A stretch of 64,000 bases of DNA from Crossaster papposus (taxonomy: Eukaryota; Echinodermata; Asteroidea; Velatida; Solasteridae), in the NCBI GenBank assembly GCA_037893245.1, contig JBAIAA010000445.1, positions 496,001-560,000 on the forward strand, in the 5' to 3' direction. Position 1 is the stretch's first letter. Each line of letters starts with the position of its first letter. This document shows positions 16,201 to 63,447 of this stretch, one piece after another. A program made the position numbers and the translations under genes. The notes beneath the pieces were generated by a model. It made no database searches. It was given only the letters and a program-made list of their open reading frames with translations, and had not been told where the DNA came from.

Positions 16201-19200
16201 TAAACTCATGAATACAGTCAGCTGGTACGCGGAAAGACGTTCTGTTTGAAGTAGCTGATAGCACGTATTGGAGAACGCAACTTCCATGTCACTTAATCCA
16301 TTAAAATCACTTTTATAAAAAAAATAAAAAAAAATAAATAAAAAAAAATAATAATACATTTTTGGATTTTGTAAACCGATTAACGAATTCGGAGGATCGA
16401 TTATTCGATATTTTCAAATTCGGTTATTCGGTTTTGAAGACCTCCGATTTGTCCCAGCACTAGCGTAAAGTCGGCAAAATCAAAAATTGAGATATGGGTA
16501 TTTCTAAATTCTGTGGAAACAGAGCTTTCCAATGGTATATTATCACTTGGAGGTTTGATACTCAATATTTTTTTTATTTATTTTTTTTAGTCTGGAGTCT
16601 TAATACAGAGATTATGAGAAAACGGGCAATTCTTGCGAGTAATTGTGTGAAAGGCATAGAAAGGCATAGTCAAAATTGTCTTAAAAACTAATTTTGTTTT
16701 TATCTGATCGTCCTGAAAAATTGGGAATTGATTGTTGGGGATTTAGTCTTAATAAACCCCTAATCTCAAAATCGACCACCCCTTCAAATTTTGACTTTGA
16801 CTGGCCGTACTGGGAAATCACTCCGTGCGACTTTACGCTCATTTTGTGATGACAGGTCACATATAAGAACTAACATTATTATTATTATTATTATTATTGA
16901 AACCTTCTATATGCCAAATAGGAACATTTGTAGCGATCATCCTAAGGACTATAAAGTGAAAGATGAAAGCAAAGGAATCAGTGTGAGAATTGGTGGTCCA
17001 TACCTCGTGATGGTTCCGTCAATGTCCGAGATGATAAGCTTGCTATCATGTTTCCAGAGATAGATGGTGGATTCACACATCGTGGTACCTTGGTATCTAG
17101 TCGTTACTGAGTACGTGATGACGTTAGGTCCTGGCTTCAGATTCAACTTGGCCTGTAAAATGCAGAGAAGATGTTACCGGATGAGCCTGAGATTGTCAGT
17201 TAGTCTAACTACATTACTCATACTAACTACATTAGATCAAACTCACCAGCTGGTCAGATGATAACCTGATAGCCTTCTTGTAGATGTTACTGAATGAGCC
17301 AGAGATTGTCGGTTGGTCTAACTACATTACTCATACTAACTACATTAGATCAAACTCACCAGCTGGTCAGATGATAACCCGATAGCCTTCTTGTAGATGT
17401 TACTGGATAAGCCAGAGATTGTCGGTTGGTTTAACTACATTACTCATACTAACAACATTAGATCCAACTCACCAGCTGATCAGATGATAACCTTATAGCC
17501 TTCTTGTAGATGTTACTGAATGAGCCTGAGATTGTCGGTTGGTCTTAATACATTACTCATACTAACTACATTAGATCCAACTCACCAGCTGGTCGAATGC
17601 TAACCTGATAGCCTTCTTGTAGATTTTACTGGATAAGCCAGAGATTGTCGGTTGGTTTAACTACCTTACTCATACTAACTACAATAGGTCCAACTCACCA
17701 GCTGGTCGGATGATAACCTGATAGCCTTCTTCTAGATGTTACTGGATGAGCCTGAGATTGTCGGTTGGTCTAACTACATTACTTATACTAACCACATTAG
17801 ATCCAACTCACCAGCTGGTCGGATGATAACCCGATAGCCTTCTGTAGAAGATGTTACTGGATGAGCCTGAGATTGTCGGTTGGTCTAACTACATTACTCA
17901 TAATAACTACATTAGGTCCAACTCACCAGCTGGTCGGATGATAACCTGATAGCCTTCTTGTATATGTTACTGGATGAGCCAGCGATTGTAGGTTGGTCTA
18001 ACTATGTTACTCATACTAACTACATTAGATCCAACTCAACAACTGGTCAGATGATAACCTGATAGCCTTCTTGTAGATGTTACTAGATGAGCCAGAGATT
18101 GTCGGTTGGTCTAACTACATTACTCATATTAACTACATTAGATCCAACTCACCAGCTGGTCAGATGATAACCTGGTAGCCTTCTTGTAGATGTTACTGGA
18201 TGAGCCAGAGATTGTCGGTTGGTCTAACTACATTACTCATACTAACTACATTAGATCCAACTCACCAGCTGGTCGGATGATAACCTGATAGCCTTCTTGT
18301 AGATGTTACTGGATGAGCCAGAGATTGTCGGTTGGTCTAACTACATTACTCATACTAACTACATTAGATCCAACTCACCAGCTGGTCGGATGATAACCCG
18401 ATAGCCTTGTTGTAGATGTTACTTGATGAGCCAGAGATTGTCGGTTGGTCTAACTACATTACTCATACTAACTACATTAGATCTAACTCACCAGCTGGTC
18501 AGATGATAACCTGATAGCCTTCTTGTAGATGTTACTAGATGAACTAGAGATTGTCGGTTGGTGTTACTACATTACCCATACTAACTACATTAGATCCAAC
18601 TCACCAGCTGGTCGGATGATAACCTGATAGCCTTCTTGTAGATGTTACTGGATGAGACTGAGATTGTCGGTTGGTCATGATCCCCAGCCTTCTCACTAGA
18701 TTCCGTCTCATCGCTCCAATACACGGTGTCATCTCGATGCCTGTTGCAAATGACAATAATAAATGTTGAAAGCATTCCAGTTTGTACAGTCTAAAACCTC
18801 AAAATATTACCCAACTTGTGCATTTTACCGTAGTGTAACTCCATGTGCAACAGCCCCAAAACCCTGTCAATACTTAAACTTGTTTCCAGCCATAAACCAC
18901 TGTACCTGTATACTCCAATCTTGTAATGGCCTGCATTTGTGCATCTACAATACAATCTGTGCGCCGACAACCAGTAGAACAGATTAAAACTGCGCTCGCT
19001 CGGATTTCTGATTAAAATTGGAAAGGTGTTATCTATCACATCACAATTGCCATTCTGCATTAGTGACTGCCTTGTGTGGTACCTTGACTCCTCTCTGTCT
19101 GCGGCCACTTCACTGCTCGCTTCACAGCTGGACTCGGACCCCTGTAGTTAGAAAATATGAATGGTGATTAATAGACAGTTGTATTAGAGTTTCTGCTAAA

Positions 19201-44038: not shown

Positions 44039-47000
44039 GTAAGTAATGGAATGATGCGCAAACACGACCCGGAAACGACTCGACCCAAAACCAGCCCCGA
44101 CCCAAAACCCGACCCCGACCCAAAACCGACCCCGACCCAAAACCGACCCGACCCAAAACCGACCCCGACCCAAAACTGACCCTGACCCAAAACCGACCCT
44201 GACCCAAAACCGACCTGACCCCAAACCGACCTGACCCAAAACCGACCCGACCCAAAACCGACCCGACCCAAAACCAGCCCCGACCCAAAACCAGCCCCGA
44301 CCCAAAACCAGCCCCGACCCAAAACCATCCGGACCCAAAGCAGACCCGACCCAAAGCAGACCCGACCCAAAGCAGACCCGACCCAAAGCAGACCCGACCC
44401 AAAACAGACCCGACCCAAAGCAGACTGACCCAAAGCAGACTGACCCAAAACCGACCCGACCCAAAACCAGCCCCGACCCAAAACCGACCCGACCCAAAAC
44501 CGACCCGACCCGACCCGACCCAAAACCAGCCCCGACCCAAAACCAGCCCCGACCCAAAACCAGCCCCGACCCAAAACCAGCCCCGACCCAAAACCAGCCC
44601 CGACCCAAAACCAGCCCCGACCCAAAACCAGCCCCGACCCAAAACCAGCCCCGACCCAAAACCAGCCCCGACCCAAAGCAGACCTGACCCAAAGCAGACC
44701 CGACCCAAAGCAGACCCGACCCAAAACAGACCCGACCCAAAGCAGACTGACCCAAAACCGACCCGACCCAAAACCAGCCCCGACCCAAAACCAGCCCCGA
44801 CCCAAAACCAGCCCCGACCCAAAGCAGACCCGACCCAAAGCAGACCCGACCCAAAGCAGACCCGACCCAAAGCAGACCCGACCCAAAACCAGCCCCGACC
44901 CAAAACCGACCCGACCCAAAACCGACCCGACCCAAAACCGACCCGACCCAAAACCGACCCGACCCAAAACCAGCCCCGACCCAAAACCAGCCCCGACCCA
45001 AAACCATCCGGACCCAAAGCAGACCCGACCCAAAGCCGACCGACCCAAAACCGACCCGACCCAAAACCTGGTCTGGTCGGGTTAAGGTTAAGTTACAAAC
45101 ATTAACAGAAAATAGTACAATTTATTGAAGATATTCCCAGTTAAAATGATAAATTGTTCTCCACAGGTCCAGATTGAGCGAACGATGGAGTTATGTGCCA
45201 TGAATTCACACCACCTTGTACCACAGACCTCCCTCGAACGACACACCCAGGAATGTGAGCTGGTCGCTCAGGGCTACTCAAGGCTAGAACAGGTCTCACA
45301 AAATCTCTCAAAATCTCTAAAAATTGAGGAAAATGTTTATGATTTTACGAGATAATCCTGTCGGGACAGTCCAGCAGCCAATTTCATGATAGTTTCATTT
45401 GTGACCGGGGGCCAATTTCGTAGAGCTGCTAAGCAACAAAATTTGCTTAGCACAAAAAAGTCTTGCTCATTAAAAACAGGTTACCAGCCCAAATTCTACA
45501 TGTTTTTCATGCTAAGCAAAAAAACCAGCTGATTATCAATCCAGAACAATAAAGGTCAGTTGAAAATTTGGTCTGTAACCTTGTTTTTGCCAAAGACAAA
45601 TTGTCATGCTAAGCAAATTTTTGTGCTTAGCAGCTTTATGAAATTGGCCCTGTTCCAACGAACCCCGGACAAAGTCGGACAATGTGTTTTATTACAATGT
45701 ACTCGTGAAGTCATTTCGGGGTAAATTTTACTATTTTTAGGTTTTGGGTTTTTCTGAATCACTAATCCGAAATTTGAACATAATCTGTCAACCATAAGCT
45801 TGTTTTCTGTCGATTATGTGAAACAATTGTGTACAGAAATAATACGCTTTCCTGAACTTCAAAGCTGTTTATCTCACAATTAGGTTATCAGGGTTTCCTC
45901 ACCAAATGCTTCCACTAGGGGAGATAGGGTGGGGATAAATGATACATTATTTTAAACCTACACTCGTAGTACATCTAATGAGAATTTGAAAAAAGCTCAA
46001 TCTAAAAAACAGAAGTTGTTAACTTTGTCCGGGTTTCGTTGGAGCAGGTCACATTTTGTGAAAAAAACTAAAAACATATTTGGCAAATGGGTAAACAGAG
46101 TTAGGAGAAATGATTTCTTAGTAAATCAAATGTTACTTTGTCTTCTTCTTATTTATCTTCTCCAGAAAGAAATCCCTGCTTCAAATAGTTTCTTCTATAC
46201 CAGGTCCTCATCTGTTGTGCCTGTGTTTATAGGTAAGACAAAGGTTTATTATTTTTAATTAAGTATTCTAACTTCATCCAGGGCACCAGCAAGTCATTAT
46301 TCCTAACTACCCCAAGCCCATCAAACTCCAACTGAAGGTTTTGCGACTGAGCGTAAACTTCCTGCGACCACCTTTGGCCTGGTAGTTTTACATCACCGCC
46401 GCGGTAGGTTGACAGGGACGTTAATCTACCGCGCGTTCCCACTGGATTAAACGTTGTCATTCTACATCCCTTTACCGGGATTGTTTTTCACGAACCTCGA
46501 TCCGATGCGGGTTCAGGCCACCCTGATATTTCTGGCCTCGCTTGCTGCGAGCGGTCGCAAACAGATATTTCCGGCCTAATTCGTGACATGTTTATCCGTC
46601 ATCGGATTTAAATCCCGGAAAACTTTGCGTGTATACACGTCCTCCGTCGCGAACTGGTTATGGAGACTGCCATGTTTTTATTCCAAATTTTGAGGGTGGA
46701 ATCGCAAATTGTTTATTTTTATTTTTGTTTTGTAGACAAGGAAGCCCAGGATGACATCTTGTCCCGCGTTCCAGGTAAAGTAGAAAATGTTATTCATCGG
46801 TTTTGTAAAAGCTTTCTTCAATTCATATTCAGTGCAAAAATGACTTCAGGGCAAGATTTCCCGCCGAAAATTTGCAAAAGTTGGACAGATTTCAACTCGC
46901 ACCAAAAAATCACACGCCCAGAAAAATCACACGCCCAGAAAAATCACACGCCCAGAAAAATCACACGCCCAGAAAAATCACACGCCCAGAAAAATCACAC

Positions 47001-58837: not shown

Positions 58838-61800
58838 CTACGCCGAGGAAAAATAAAGACACGGTCAATATCAACAACATTTACATATGTGATGCGATCA
58901 AGCAAAATCAGTCTGAAGTAGGCCTTGGTCATTTTGGGGATTTTTACATATTCTTTTGTAGCGTACTTCAGGCTCCATTTCAGTGAAAATCCCATGTGAA
59001 TACGACCTTTGGTTAAAATATTACAACCATTTGAACACCAGCACGTTAAAAAAAAAGAAACTGAGTAAATCATGTTTTTGTATCACTTCCCTTCTAAATT
59101 TGGTTAAAAGAGTATTTTCATGTAAAAGATAAATATTTTCCCCATCTGTTTTTGTAAAAAACGAACATATTTCGGCCCTATCTCAAAACAAGAATTGCTG
59201 AGTTCCGACTGATATTGCTTGATCGCATCACATATTCAAATCTTTAGCCCTAACCCCGTCAGACGTAGTCCTTGCCGAAGACGAATGCGTTTGATCGATC
59301 GTGTAAATCGCGTATTCTTTTCACGCAGTGCGCCGGCTAACCACACGAATACAGACCAGCTCCCTCGCTTACGCATATATCTTTGCAAATTGCTTCTAGC
59401 GGTTTAGGTGGTATAGCAGGTTTTCTTAGAGAGCCAATCAACGATCGCAGAACTGCGATTATCAATGCGTACTACGCGCACGCACGAAATTCCTTTGTGA
59501 AGCAGCGCTAATTAGATATGTGACCCACCAGGCCAAAACCAGGCGGAAGTCGTCAAATGCCATTTCGAGATATGGCATTGTACACACAAAAATGTGTTGC
59601 CGGTCGATTTTTTTTCTTTCTTATAAATCGTTAGTTAAAACTCTAATTTATAGGCTGTTCATGTCTAAACCTTTTTTAAAATCCCCAAAAGTGATAATAT
59701 CGGCCTTCTCCTAATTTTTGTTGTCGTTGCTATTACTCAAATTGAGCAAACTTGTTGCCGCGAACGGCAACAAAATGTCACTTTTTGAAGCGTCGTTACT
59801 TTTCATTCCATAGCGGTACCGGTGCATGTGATGTATCATTTTAAAGCTTAAAACGCTAGCAATCTAATGGTATAAAAATCTCTCATATGAAAAATTTCGA
59901 CTTTAGCCTGGTTTTGGGGTGGTGGGTCACATATGCAACGCAGGCCAGCGCGACCGCCGAATGGTAGTTGACTGCGTGAAGATGCTATGCGTATATTAGA
60001 ATGGTCGATTTCGTATGAAAAGGTCACGCGCCATTATTTTAAGCAATTTGCAAAGACCACTGTGTGATCGAGGGAGCTGATGGGAATATAAATTGTGTCA
60101 TTAGCGGGTGCACTGTCGAATGCAGTGGTCTTTGGCACAAAAAAGTCGTGCTCAATAAGTTTTTCATGCTAAGCAAAAAAACAGCTGATTATCAATCAAA
60201 AACAATAAAGATCACTTGAAAAATTGGGCTGTAACCTTGTTTTTGCCAAGGACAAATTTTCATGCTAAGCATATTTTTGTGCTTAGCAGCTCTATGAAAT
60301 TGGCCCTTGGTCAGACGCAGCAGCACAGTGCTTCTCCCCACCCAGGAGTGAAACGGGTACCTATTATGTAACAGGTACCTGTTATGAAACGGGTACCTGT
60401 TATGTGGGGAATAAAATTGTCCTTCCACGCATACATTCGTAGTGATATAAATTATCATGTAAAGCTAGCCGAACTTCCGAACCGACCGTTTCGGTTCGGG
60501 TTCGGTTTAGACGGCTCAGGTTGTCAGGTTGGCGCAGCGGTTTTTTCCTCGACTTCCACCGCTGTGACCTGGGGGGCGAATCCCGCTTGGGCCAATATAT
60601 GGATTGGGTTTTCAGTCCCTGCCTGATTTCATGAGAAAAGATATTTGGCTATATAGGGCCATTGCAGATTTTTCCTTTGAAAAAATATAAGTAGACTAAC
60701 GATTGGTTTTTTTTTAATTTTCAAAATGGCTGCCGTTCCTCAATAATCGACCTACATTAAGTGCAAATCTGCGATGGTGCTATTACAAAAAAAAATTCTC
60801 ATGACATAATTAAACTTTCGCCATTAAAACTAGAATTTTGTTCTTATTGTTTATCTCTGCAGGTTTCTTAAGGTTTATCAGCTACAGTGCCTTGGTTTTA
60901 TTACTAATTTATGATAAAAATAATCTATTTTTAAGGTTGAAACTTAAACACAGCACAACATTTTTGTTTTTAAATATTGTGACTTACTTTTTGCCTCTGG
61001 GGTAGTGCCTGACATATTCGCCAATATCATGGGCACTGACGCACAGAACCAAAGGATCTTTAGATGTCTCTAGAAGTCGCGTCAAAATCCTGAGAAAGAG
61101 AAAAAGCTTCAAATTACTTTTGGAACAAGAAGATAACTATTAAACAGTTCGCGCCGGGATTATTTCGACATTGACAGGACCCAGGCACGTGATGGTTTTT
61201 CACAAACCTCGATCCGAGACGGGCTGAGGCCGCCATCTGTGGGTAGCACACCCTGATAATGTTTTGAATAAACAAAGGAGCATGACTTTAGCAATTTCAA
61301 AGGAGTATAGCGGCAGCTAGGAATAAGCTACAGCAACACACAATACATCATTTGAAAGCTTAGGACTTCTTCCTTCTAGACATGTAATAATGTCAATTTT
61401 GTAATTTTGTTATTTTGCAACTTTCCACCCATTTTGTGGTGCCAGGTCACATTTGTGAAGTGAAAGACGATGACCATAACGTGAAAACAGAGTTGTTACA
61501 ACTTTGACCGACTGACTTGAGCAATTCGTAGTTCTTCTCGTTGAGCCTCATGGCGTTCTCCCGCCAAAACTTCTCGCTCCTGTGCACCGGGCTCCACTCC
61601 AGCCGACCCGATTTCACCTCAGATGAATATTCATCAAATGAGCTTTAAAACAAAAGCAAGAAGACAAAGTTAAATTAAAATAAAATACTCCTTGTGACTT
61701 TCAAACAATTTTGAGCCCGACCCAAAAAAACCTAAAATTCTTGAATAAAACCTACCTGAGATCCACCATACTATCTAGTAGGTTCTCCACGAGATACTCC

Positions 61801-63447
61801 ACATCTTCCGTGATGTCAGAATCTTCAATCTTCTTCCCTCCTCCCTGTCACAATCTAAGCCCCTCATCCTCCTCTCACCTACCCGAGATCCCCCATACTG
61901 CCTTGTAGGTTCTCCACTAGATACTCTACATCTTCCAGGATGTCGGGATCATCAATCTTCCTCCCTCCTCCCTGTGGCAATCTAAGACCCTTACCCTCCT
62001 TTCACCTACCTGTGATCCACCATACTGTCTTGTAGTTTCTCCCCCAGATACTCTACATCTTCCGGGATGTCAGGATCGTCAATTTTCATTCCTCCTCCCT
62101 GTCACAATCCAAGACCTTCACCCTCCTTAGATCTACCATACTGCCTTGTAGTTTCTCCCCCAGATACTCCACATCTTCCATGATGTCAGGATCTTCAATA
62201 TTCCTCCTTCCTCCCTGTCACAATCTAAGCCTTTCACCCTCTCTTCACCTCCCTGAGATCCACCATACTGTCTTGTAGGTTCTCTACCAGATACTCCACA
62301 TCTTCCGTGATGTCAGGATCTTTAATATTCCTCCTTCCTTCCTGTCATAATCTAAGCCCCTCACCCTCCCTTTATCCACCTGAGATCCACCATAGTGCCT
62401 GGTAGGTTCTCCACTAGATATTCTCAACTTCCGTGATGTCAGGATCGTCGTTCTTCCTCTCTCTTCCATGTCACAATCTAAGCCACTCACCCTCCCTTCA
62501 CCTATCTGAGATCCACCATACTGTCCGGTAGTTTCTCCCCCAGATACTCCACATCTTCCCGGGTTGTCAGGATCTTCAATATTCCTCCCTCCTCCCTGTT
62601 GCAATCTAAGACCCTCACCCTCCCTAAACCTACCTGAGATCCACCATACTGCCTAGTAGTTTCTCCACCAGAAACTCCACATCTTCCGTAATGTCAGGAT
62701 CGTCATTCTTCCTCTCTCTTCCCTGTCACAATCTAAGCCCCTTACCCTTCCTTCACCTACCTGAGATCCACCATACTGTCTGGCAGGTTTTTCACCAGAT
62801 ACTCTACATCTTCCGTGATGTCAGGATTGCCAATCTTCCTCCCTCCTCCCTGTCACAATCTAAGACCCTCACCCTCCCTAAACCTACCTGAGATCCACCA
62901 TACTGTCTTGATGTTTCTCCCCCAGATACTCTACATCTTCCGTGATGTCAGAATCTCCAATCTTCCTCCCTCTTCCCTATCGCAATCTAAGACCCTCCCA
63001 CTCCTTTTACCTACCCGAGATCCACCATACTGTCTTGATGTTTCTCCCTCAGATACTCCACATCTTCTGGGTTGTCAGGATCTTCAATCTTCCTCCCTCC
63101 TCCCTGTCGCAATCTAAGACCCTCACCCTCCTTTCACCTACCTGAGATTCACCATACTGTCTTGTAGTTTCTCCCCCAGATACTCTACATCTTCCGTGAT
63201 GTCAGGATCTGCAATCTTCCTCCTTCCCTCCTGTTGCAATCTAAGACCCTCACCCTTTCTTGACCTACCTGAGATCCACCATACTGCCTTGTAGTTTCTC
63301 CCCCAGAAACTCCACATCTTCCGTGATGTCAGGATCTTCAATCTTCTGGCCTTGTAGTACCTCTAGTTGCTTCAAGACTTTGCATTGTATCATGGCCAGA
63401 GCGTTCTCTTGAACAACCTCCTTCTCTTCCGGTTTCTCAATCATATT
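58681..63447 (-). CDS. ATP6V1H: V-type ATPase V1 subunit H, C-terminal four exons (partial)
   Basis: Subunit H is the regulatory V1 subunit that bridges the rotor and stator and silences free V1; it acts on endosomes, lysosomes and plasma membrane. Exons 63269-63447, 61517-61642, 60988-61089 and 58681-58837 are joined in consistent phase (564 nt, 187 residues plus stop). They match the C-terminal armadillo/HEAT domain: [90 protein letters not shown] and [15 protein letters not shown]. The 5' part lies beyond 64000. The very end ([13 protein letters not shown]) departs from the usual NWEYLG-type tail. Confidence 0.95.
58838..60987. other. ATP6V1H last intron: repeats
   Basis: 59517-59937: MITE with ends ATATGTGACCCACCAGGCCA / TGGTGGGTCACATAT. 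60130-60310: AAGC-hairpin MITE. 60525-60640: SINE head (AGGTTGGCGCAGCGG, GGGCGAATCCCGC). 60640-60790: repeat of the 39700-39800 type (GGGCCATTGCAGATTT, AAAATGGCTGCCGTT). 59240-59470 and 59950-60100 share AGCTCCCTCG / CGAGGGAGCT in opposite orientation, flanking the MITE. Confidence 0.7.
60988..61089 (-). CDS. ATP6V1H: ATP6V1H coding exon ([13 protein letters not shown])
   Basis: 102 nt. Acceptor TTTCTCAG|G, donor [31 protein letters not shown], then [13 protein letters not shown], nearly invariant in animals. Confidence 0.95.
61142..61460. mobile_element. C-family fragment fused to D-family copy
   Basis: TAAACAGTTCGCGCCGGGATTA to about 61255, then D-family sequence (AAGGAGTATAGCGGCAGCTAG) ending TTTGTGGTGCCAGGTCACATTTGTG. 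This is the reverse of the C-in-D nesting at 13178-13740. Confidence 0.75.
61517..61642 (-). CDS. ATP6V1H: ATP6V1H coding exon ([20 protein letters not shown])
   Basis: 126 nt. Acceptor TTTTAAAG|C; donor CTCAA|GTCAGT (non-optimal but phase-correct). Confidence 0.93.
61750..63268 (-). repeat. 127-bp array of ATP6V1H exon end plus donor, filling one intron
   Basis: GAGATCCACCATACT (exon-end marker) recurs at 61758, 61885, 62012, about 62129, 62255, 62382, 62508, 62636, 62763, 62890, 63017, 63144 and, in the true exon, 63271: mostly 127-bp spacing. Each unit has about 78 nt of exon ([20 protein letters not shown], then SMVDL), the donor and about 49 nt of GA-rich intron. Ten of 13 junctions keep GT at the donor; those near 62129, 62255 and 62508 have lost it. 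Confidence 0.95.
63269..63447 (-). CDS. ATP6V1H: ATP6V1H coding exon that seeds the 127-bp array
   Basis: 179 nt. Acceptor ATTTTTGCAG|A, donor [43 protein letters not shown], then [20 protein letters not shown] and MVDL. The last about 78 nt is repeated downstream. Confidence 0.95.

Follow-up and report, generated by a model that had tools for sequence, protein, structure and literature searches.

How does a minisatellite come to lie across a splice junction of an essential gene, and does it do any work there? The question is raised by a stretch of 64,000 nucleotides (nt) from the genome of the sea star Crossaster papposus (assembly GCA_037893245.1, contig JBAIAA010000445.1, positions 496,001 to 560,000 of the forward strand), referred to here as the window. 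In its gene for subunit H of the V-ATPase, ATP6V1H (V1H in the following), the end of one exon is repeated in tandem together with the adjacent 5´ splice site and the beginning of the intron. We propose that the array is a minisatellite that was born locally over the 5´ splice site and is tolerated by the gene without working in it, and we assign this reading a probability of roughly 0.85. The features on which the argument rests, numbered from the first letter of the window, are the following.

63269..63447, minus strand: authentic ATP6V1H exon, 179 nt, ending in phase 2 with ...GATCTCAG; coordinates and frame were read, protein identity was matched.
61750..63346, minus strand: tandem array of a 127-bp unit, with the exon end present 13 times and the intron piece 12 times (Tandem Repeats Finder, TRF, and alignment of copies).
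63269..63346, minus strand: copy 1 of the repeated exon end, 78 nt, coding.
63263..63268, minus strand: authentic 5´ splice site GTAGGT, donor G at 63268; if it is skipped, the TAG within it becomes an in-frame stop.
61643..63268, minus strand: array-bearing intron of 1,626 nt, filled to about 93% by the array and closed by the acceptor AG, whose last base is 61643.
61750..61755, minus strand: donor GTAGGT of copy 13, the last one, followed by unique intron.
61517..61642, minus strand: next ATP6V1H exon, SSFDEY...ELLK; its start was computed and its end placed by eye.

The first point to settle is the anatomy of the array. TRF reports a period of 127 bp, 12.7 copies and a score of 2041 at 61750-63346. 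The exon begins at 63447, just past a 3´ splice site, and the unit consists of its last 78 nt (from GAAGATT at 63346), the donor GTAGGT and the next 43 bases of the intron; with GTAGGT counted in, 49 nt of each unit are intronic. Successive copies are spaced by 127, 127, 127, 127, 127, 127, 128, 126, 127, 116, 127 and 127 bp. GAAGATT stands at both ends of the unit, once in the exon and once closing the intron piece. Copy 13 is without an intron piece and passes at GTAGGTTT into unique intron, and from its donor (61755) to the end of the intron at 61643 there are 113 nt. A preliminary description of the window, made from the letters alone, had given the same anatomy of exon end, GTAGGT and intron start, and had counted 13 copies filling most of a 1.6-kb intron; both statements hold. 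The tandem units cross the exon-intron boundary of their host gene, and the array is in this sense an exon-junction minisatellite.

The identity of the gene, likewise proposed in advance, is well supported. A stretch of 102 residues across the junction aligns without gaps to residues 291-392 of solved chains named V-ATPase subunit H (best E 4.6e-43), the alignment runs through the splice (...DL|SSFDEY), and Pfam V-ATPase_H_C and V-ATPase_H_N both exceed their cut-offs for the V1H protein. As read from the sequence, copy 1 is the coding copy. The intron splits a serine codon. If the first donor is skipped, translation runs through CTC AGG TAG into a stop one base inside the intron, so every later donor yields the identical early stop. 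The unit carries the gene's own codons, as a repeat of local origin should. When the array was used as a genome query, the matches listed came only from the V1H locus and its second copy, though the search skips very common words and is not a proof of rarity.

What, then, has become of the copies downstream of the coding one? GT is retained at 10 of the 13 junctions in the window, exactly as first counted. Nine copies read GTAGGT and one GTGGAT; the signal is lost in copies 7 (AT), 9 (GG) and 10 (an 11-bp deletion over the site). On a second contig, described below, 12/13 copies keep GT, copies 9 and 10 among them, so that at both loci the splice signal survives in many copies and not in all. 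Compared with the consensus, copies 2-12 differ at 67/777 sites of the exon-derived part and at 56/548 sites of the intron piece beyond the donor hexamer (Fisher p = 0.34), and at 4/66 sites of the hexamer itself. From the mean rate, GT is expected to survive in 9.9 of the 12 downstream copies; it is observed in 9 of them in the window (one loss by deletion) and in 11 on the second contig. Neighbouring copies are no more similar than distant ones (Spearman -0.02, p = 0.90). In a tree of the copies, two of the 12 inner branches are supported, both pairing the two contigs' versions of one copy. Further, no likely acceptor is present within the array: the best of its 195 AGs has 11/20 pyrimidines upstream, the real acceptor 16/20. 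Because exon and intron parts diverge similarly, GT survives at a near-neutral level and a good internal acceptor is missing, the downstream copies give the impression of intron sequence that is not used and drifts. Selective constraint on them is mostly rejected by the same parity of divergence and the same GT survival, with a small synonymous excess left over.

The second contig also bears on whether the array is real. The assembly searched (1.02 Gb, 1,841 contigs) contains another V1H array at C216:782274-783881 that is 99% identical to that of the window. Copy for copy, the 13 variants recur there in unchanged order, and the two arrays are set apart by 4 substitutions and one 11-bp difference. 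The 400 bp preceding the array and copies 1-4 show zero differences between the two contigs; among 1,037 flank columns compared, 56 differ, all of them downstream. The C216 locus may be a second haplotype or a recent duplicate. Some genes match two contigs with equal scores (C866 and C984 are one such pair), and by eye no pairing of this kind is seen in the chaperonin rows of the survey presented below. The assembly thus seems to hold part of a second haplotype.

Several observations weigh against a neutral, locally born array. Downstream exon copies show a slight synonymous excess (21/71 versus 14.6 expected, one-sided p = 0.033), and codon position 1 is less variable (0.074) than positions 2 (0.161) and 3 (0.167); together these may come from weak constraint, from chance, or from homogenisation by the coding copy. 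U1 does not pair best with the authentic donor. The duplex energy of this site is -11.5 kcal/mol, those of the other copies range from -6.3 to -12.5, and the value of -12.5 belongs to copy 11, so that exclusive use of the authentic site is something we infer. The last intron piece is absent, and plain head-to-tail duplication therefore needs one further deletion. Finally, the number of copies is equal on both contigs (13 and 13, with one 11-bp difference), so the array does not display length instability of its own.

A possible model of origin and fate is as follows. The first tandem duplication would have one end in the exon, at GAAGATT, and the other in the intron, so that exon end, donor and intron start were copied together. 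Short exon-intron matches, like GAAGATT in V1H or AGGCAAGAC/AGGTAAGAC in a dynein gene on contig C72, could start such a duplication. The anatomy and the 7-bp match are observed; slippage or unequal exchange is the cause that we infer. The same processes would then alter the number of copies, and later rounds would extend the array into the intron. Arrays of the same kind do differ in copy number between paired contigs (lipin, kinesin C1238/C1108, SNF2-family C14/C456). Splicing presumably takes the first donor, the one nearest to the exon's own acceptor, and leaves later copies to drift as intron. The exon end ...GATCTCAG of copy 1 would thus be joined directly to CTCATTTGATG. The array would be tolerated because copy 1 keeps the frame and any later donor gives an immediate stop; transcripts made from later donors would be degraded, or would give a subunit truncated after MVDLR.

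The alternative that survives best is a selected device for splicing or dosage, in which a row of donors with GGG/GA-rich spacers holds the U1 small nuclear ribonucleoprotein, or competes, and so sets V1H through poison transcripts. In its favor, the nine copies of 13 that read GTAGGT have U1 energies of -11.4 to -12.5 kcal/mol, near the authentic -11.5; the consensus unit has five GGG in its intron piece, the array holds 51 runs of at least three G on the sense strand, and the synonymous excess would fit as well. The preliminary description had regarded the GA/GGG-rich intron piece as typical of splicing enhancers. The purine- and GGG-rich composition is real, but an enhancer role does not follow from it: the intron piece is conserved no better than the rest of the unit (p = 0.34, as above), and GGG counts per unit in seven arrays run from 0 to 6, namely 6 (V1H), 0 (lipin), 5 (C17), 1, 1, 0 and 1, so that five of the six other arrays have 0 or 1. 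Moreover, GT retention is close to the neutral expectation, and arrays also occur on the acceptor side, where no donor row forms. We therefore consider such a device improbable.

Still somewhat less probable is that the array represents a stage of intron gain, with a new exon arising from one of the exon copies through the duplicated AG|GT sites, or with the array having created the intron. Such a role is put forward, in excerpts of PMC3087553, for similar repeats of amphioxus called mirages, and the same excerpts cite the model of Rogers, in which introns are gained via tandem duplication of AG/GT proto-splice sites. The lipin array of the window extends almost to the acceptor, so its intron is nearly all array. 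In the P-loop exon of the C72 dynein, the 86-bp unit is almost wholly exonic, the apparent 5´ splice site AAGGTAAGAC mirrors exonic AGGCAAGAC, and the apparent donor AAG|GTAAGAC (AGGTAAGAC) matches it. Duplicated AG|GT sites flank a repeat in V1H as in the Rogers model. However, V1H copies sit inside an existing intron, no new intron or exon is seen, and no AG of the array exceeds 11 pyrimidines in the preceding 20 bases.

Insertion of a dispersed satellite or transposon at the junction is very improbable: the genome does have dispersed repeats (one lies in locus L070, see below), but the search with the array, very common words skipped, lists nothing beyond the V1H locus and its second copy, the unit holds the gene's own codons, and the other arrays are dissimilar. 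No better can be said of an assembly artefact, a collapsed or mis-threaded repeat that the preliminary description had named as fatal to its claim, because although assemblies are error-prone at repeats, each copy has its own variants and the match of 13 variant copies in order on a second contig (4 substitutions, one 11-bp difference) makes such an error unlikely.

Similar arrays lie in other genes of this genome, and one is in the window itself.

17169..18676, minus strand: lipin array with a 113-bp unit that spans the donor CTG|GTGAGT and is present 13 times; it shares the anatomy of the V1H array but is unrelated in sequence.

The lipin array has 13 copies in the window and 10 on a second contig. 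BLAST finds no similarity among seven different array units, V1H and lipin included, in agreement with the earlier view that these two arrays originated separately.

Others were found in a survey of 800 match rows from seven Pfam families in the same assembly (myosin 99, chaperonin 72, kinesin 139, DHC_N2 114, AAA_6 125, p450 109, SNF2 142); 13 globin-search rows, 4 of COX1 and 0 of GFP lie outside the 800. Arrays outside the window were recognised by eye in match rows, and some may be missed. Sequence was inspected for seven of them (C17; C1238 and C1108; C5; C167; C72; C893; C456), and the C181 array and the long C14 array are known from rows only. Splice sites were set by eye from frame and consensus, with the next exon in the same stretch for C1238/C1108 only. 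If C1238/C1108 and C14/C456 are taken to be pairs of haplotypes and each pair is entered once, the survey shows eight further loci with a piece of an exon recurring at regular intervals to one side of it, five of them donor-side and three acceptor-side.

Kinesin, C17: donor side, 133 bp; seven exon-end copies including the coding one, six with ATG|GTAAGT; an eighth begins at the edge of the stretch.
Kinesin, C1238 and C1108: donor side, 145 bp; 8 copies versus 3 copies.
Dynein, C72 (L092, C72:1886150-1886700): donor side, 86 bp; 16 further copies among the matches listed.
SNF2-family gene, C14:215968-227052: donor side, step of about 136 bp over 11 kb; 39 further copies among the matches listed.
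SNF2-family gene, C456:2123919-2125065: donor side; 3 further copies among the matches listed; apparent donor TTGAG|GTCAGG.
Another SNF2-family gene, C181: donor side, 119 bp; 5 further copies, from rows only.
Dynein, C5: acceptor side, 147 bp; about 2.3 copies.
Dynein, C167 (L091, C167:46450-47560): acceptor side, 118 bp; 8 copies.
Kinesin, C893: acceptor side; two copies, 80% alike.

The C14 array also shows a larger repeated spacing pattern, and C456 may be its other haplotype. In the C167 dynein, eight nearly identical copies comprise the 3´ splice site and the exon start. Since the coding copy comes last of these, seven near-identical acceptors have to be passed over by the spliceosome before it. 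By eye, no junction arrays are seen in the myosin, chaperonin or p450 rows. Roughly one junction-array locus is met per hundred match rows; bacterial matches, paired contigs and the repeats themselves all contribute rows, so the figure is not a rate per intron. The preliminary description implied a preference for 5´ splice sites. The ratio of donor to acceptor arrays is 5:3 outside the window (two-sided binomial p = 0.73) and 7:3 with the window's two (p = 0.34), and this small sample, which is not genome-wide, gives no support to a donor-side bias. Donor-side arrays include the longest ones encountered, and from eight cases we draw no conclusion.

A separate scan covered 73 exon loci with 1.5-kb flanks (30 myosin, 13 globin-search and 30 chaperonin-search, some of them bacterial or false). 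The matched exon was flagged as copied alongside itself in three, L010, L064 and L070. L010 has two matches, of 16 and 21 nt; L064, with one degenerate 31-nt copy, and L070, with a dispersed repeat in an intron, were discarded as candidates. A TRF array covers the matched exon in L070 only, and 25/73 loci have some array with a period of at least 20. Overlapping kinesin or dynein match ranges at C58:808692-809174, C685:391034-391638 and C41:215027-215488 are possible junction repeats that could not be read. On C188 (L089 versus L090), a 116-bp copy (96%) of part of a dynein exon lies about 2.4 kb upstream of that exon, among other exons.

Repeats of this kind have been described in two other groups of animals. 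The amphioxus mirages are characterized, in excerpts of PMC3087553 and PMC3902484, as minisatellite-like tandem duplications of exon-intron boundaries, either 5´ or 3´, in the genes for Adh3, globins BflGb6 and BflGb9, troponin C and PGBD5. According to the same excerpts, units measure 150-160 bp in the globins and 10-72 bp in Adh3, AG/GT persists in many copies though not in every one, BflGb6 occurs with 6 units in one haplotype and 3 in another, and splicing is reported to be undisturbed. The V1H array resembles the mirages in its tandem, boundary-spanning units and in partial retention of splice signals; it differs in its echinoderm host, in the genes affected and in the equal copy number on both contigs. 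The Adh3 mirage is also said to be somatically unstable. Unlike the amphioxus globins, none of the 13 loci from the globin search, among them one on a contig that looks bacterial, has an array over the matched exon.

Taken narrowly, a mirage belongs to a cephalochordate, and the present host is not one, since its mitochondrial COX1 is best translated by the echinoderm code. The contig concerned, C1841, looks mitochondrial, and its COX1 has 13 in-frame TGA codons. AAA stands at positions that we take to be conserved asparagines (GGFG[N]W, MN[N]MSFW). Both features agree with the echinoderm code. COX1 is followed by ND4L and then COX2, as judged by eye, and four tRNA genes were found ahead of it, three of them on the opposite strand. 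This order (COX1, ND4L, COX2, with tRNAs before COX1) is presumably the echinoderm, sea-star-like arrangement.

The second known case, exon stuttering in chicken, was described in 2026. Excerpts of PMC12954441 describe introns through which part of an exon has spread in copies, each with the donor or acceptor next to it. By the same account, unit size ranges from tens to hundreds of bases, the introns differ in length among individuals, and 190/236 of them are located on dot chromosomes. Here, in contrast, eight further arrays come from a small sample of conserved genes in another phylum. The host is not a bird, so the location on avian dot chromosomes that marks exon stuttering in the narrow sense does not apply. 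The V1H array looks like the same kind as mirages and exon stuttering, in another phylum, and the kind itself is already known. No echinoderm report of such arrays was found in the open-licence literature, searched partly with echinoderm and sea-star terms.

On its own, the V1H array is of modest interest, as it looks neutral, although it places the 3´ coding end of an essential subunit's exon inside a repeat. More interesting is recurrence over both splice sites of conserved genes. The presence of arrays in echinoderm V1H, lipin, kinesin, dynein and SNF2-family genes suggests a wider mutational process. It is conceivable, and we offer this tentatively, with less than even confidence, that splice-junction expansion is a general and continuing process of intron growth in deuterostomes, frequent here (eight arrays in 800 rows of seven families) and reshaping introns of essential genes. 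If so, the genome would harbour natural minigenes by the hundreds to thousands, each requiring the spliceosome to choose the first of many near-identical donors or the last of many near-identical acceptors. Because a single site in such a row is the right one, these arrays let nature itself test exon definition, proximity rules and nonsense-mediated decay.

Other observations concern the assembly and the window. Contig C8, of more than 5.2 Mb, has long open COX1, Cpn60, globin-like and SNF2 matches and looks bacterial. The assembly search gave no GFP gene, a weak argument against an amphioxus host since no control gave signal. Two further repeats lie in the window. At 44077-45068, a 16-bp GACCC-rich unit that is not derived from an exon is repeated about 60 times; the copies nearly fill an intron and start about 40 nt past the probable donor of a U11-48K-like gene (its CHHC finger is below the Pfam cut-off). 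At 797-2609, a 161-bp array lies beside a minus-strand B-box gene; TRF gives 7.0 copies at 1414-2547, and BLAST adds more from 797 onwards.

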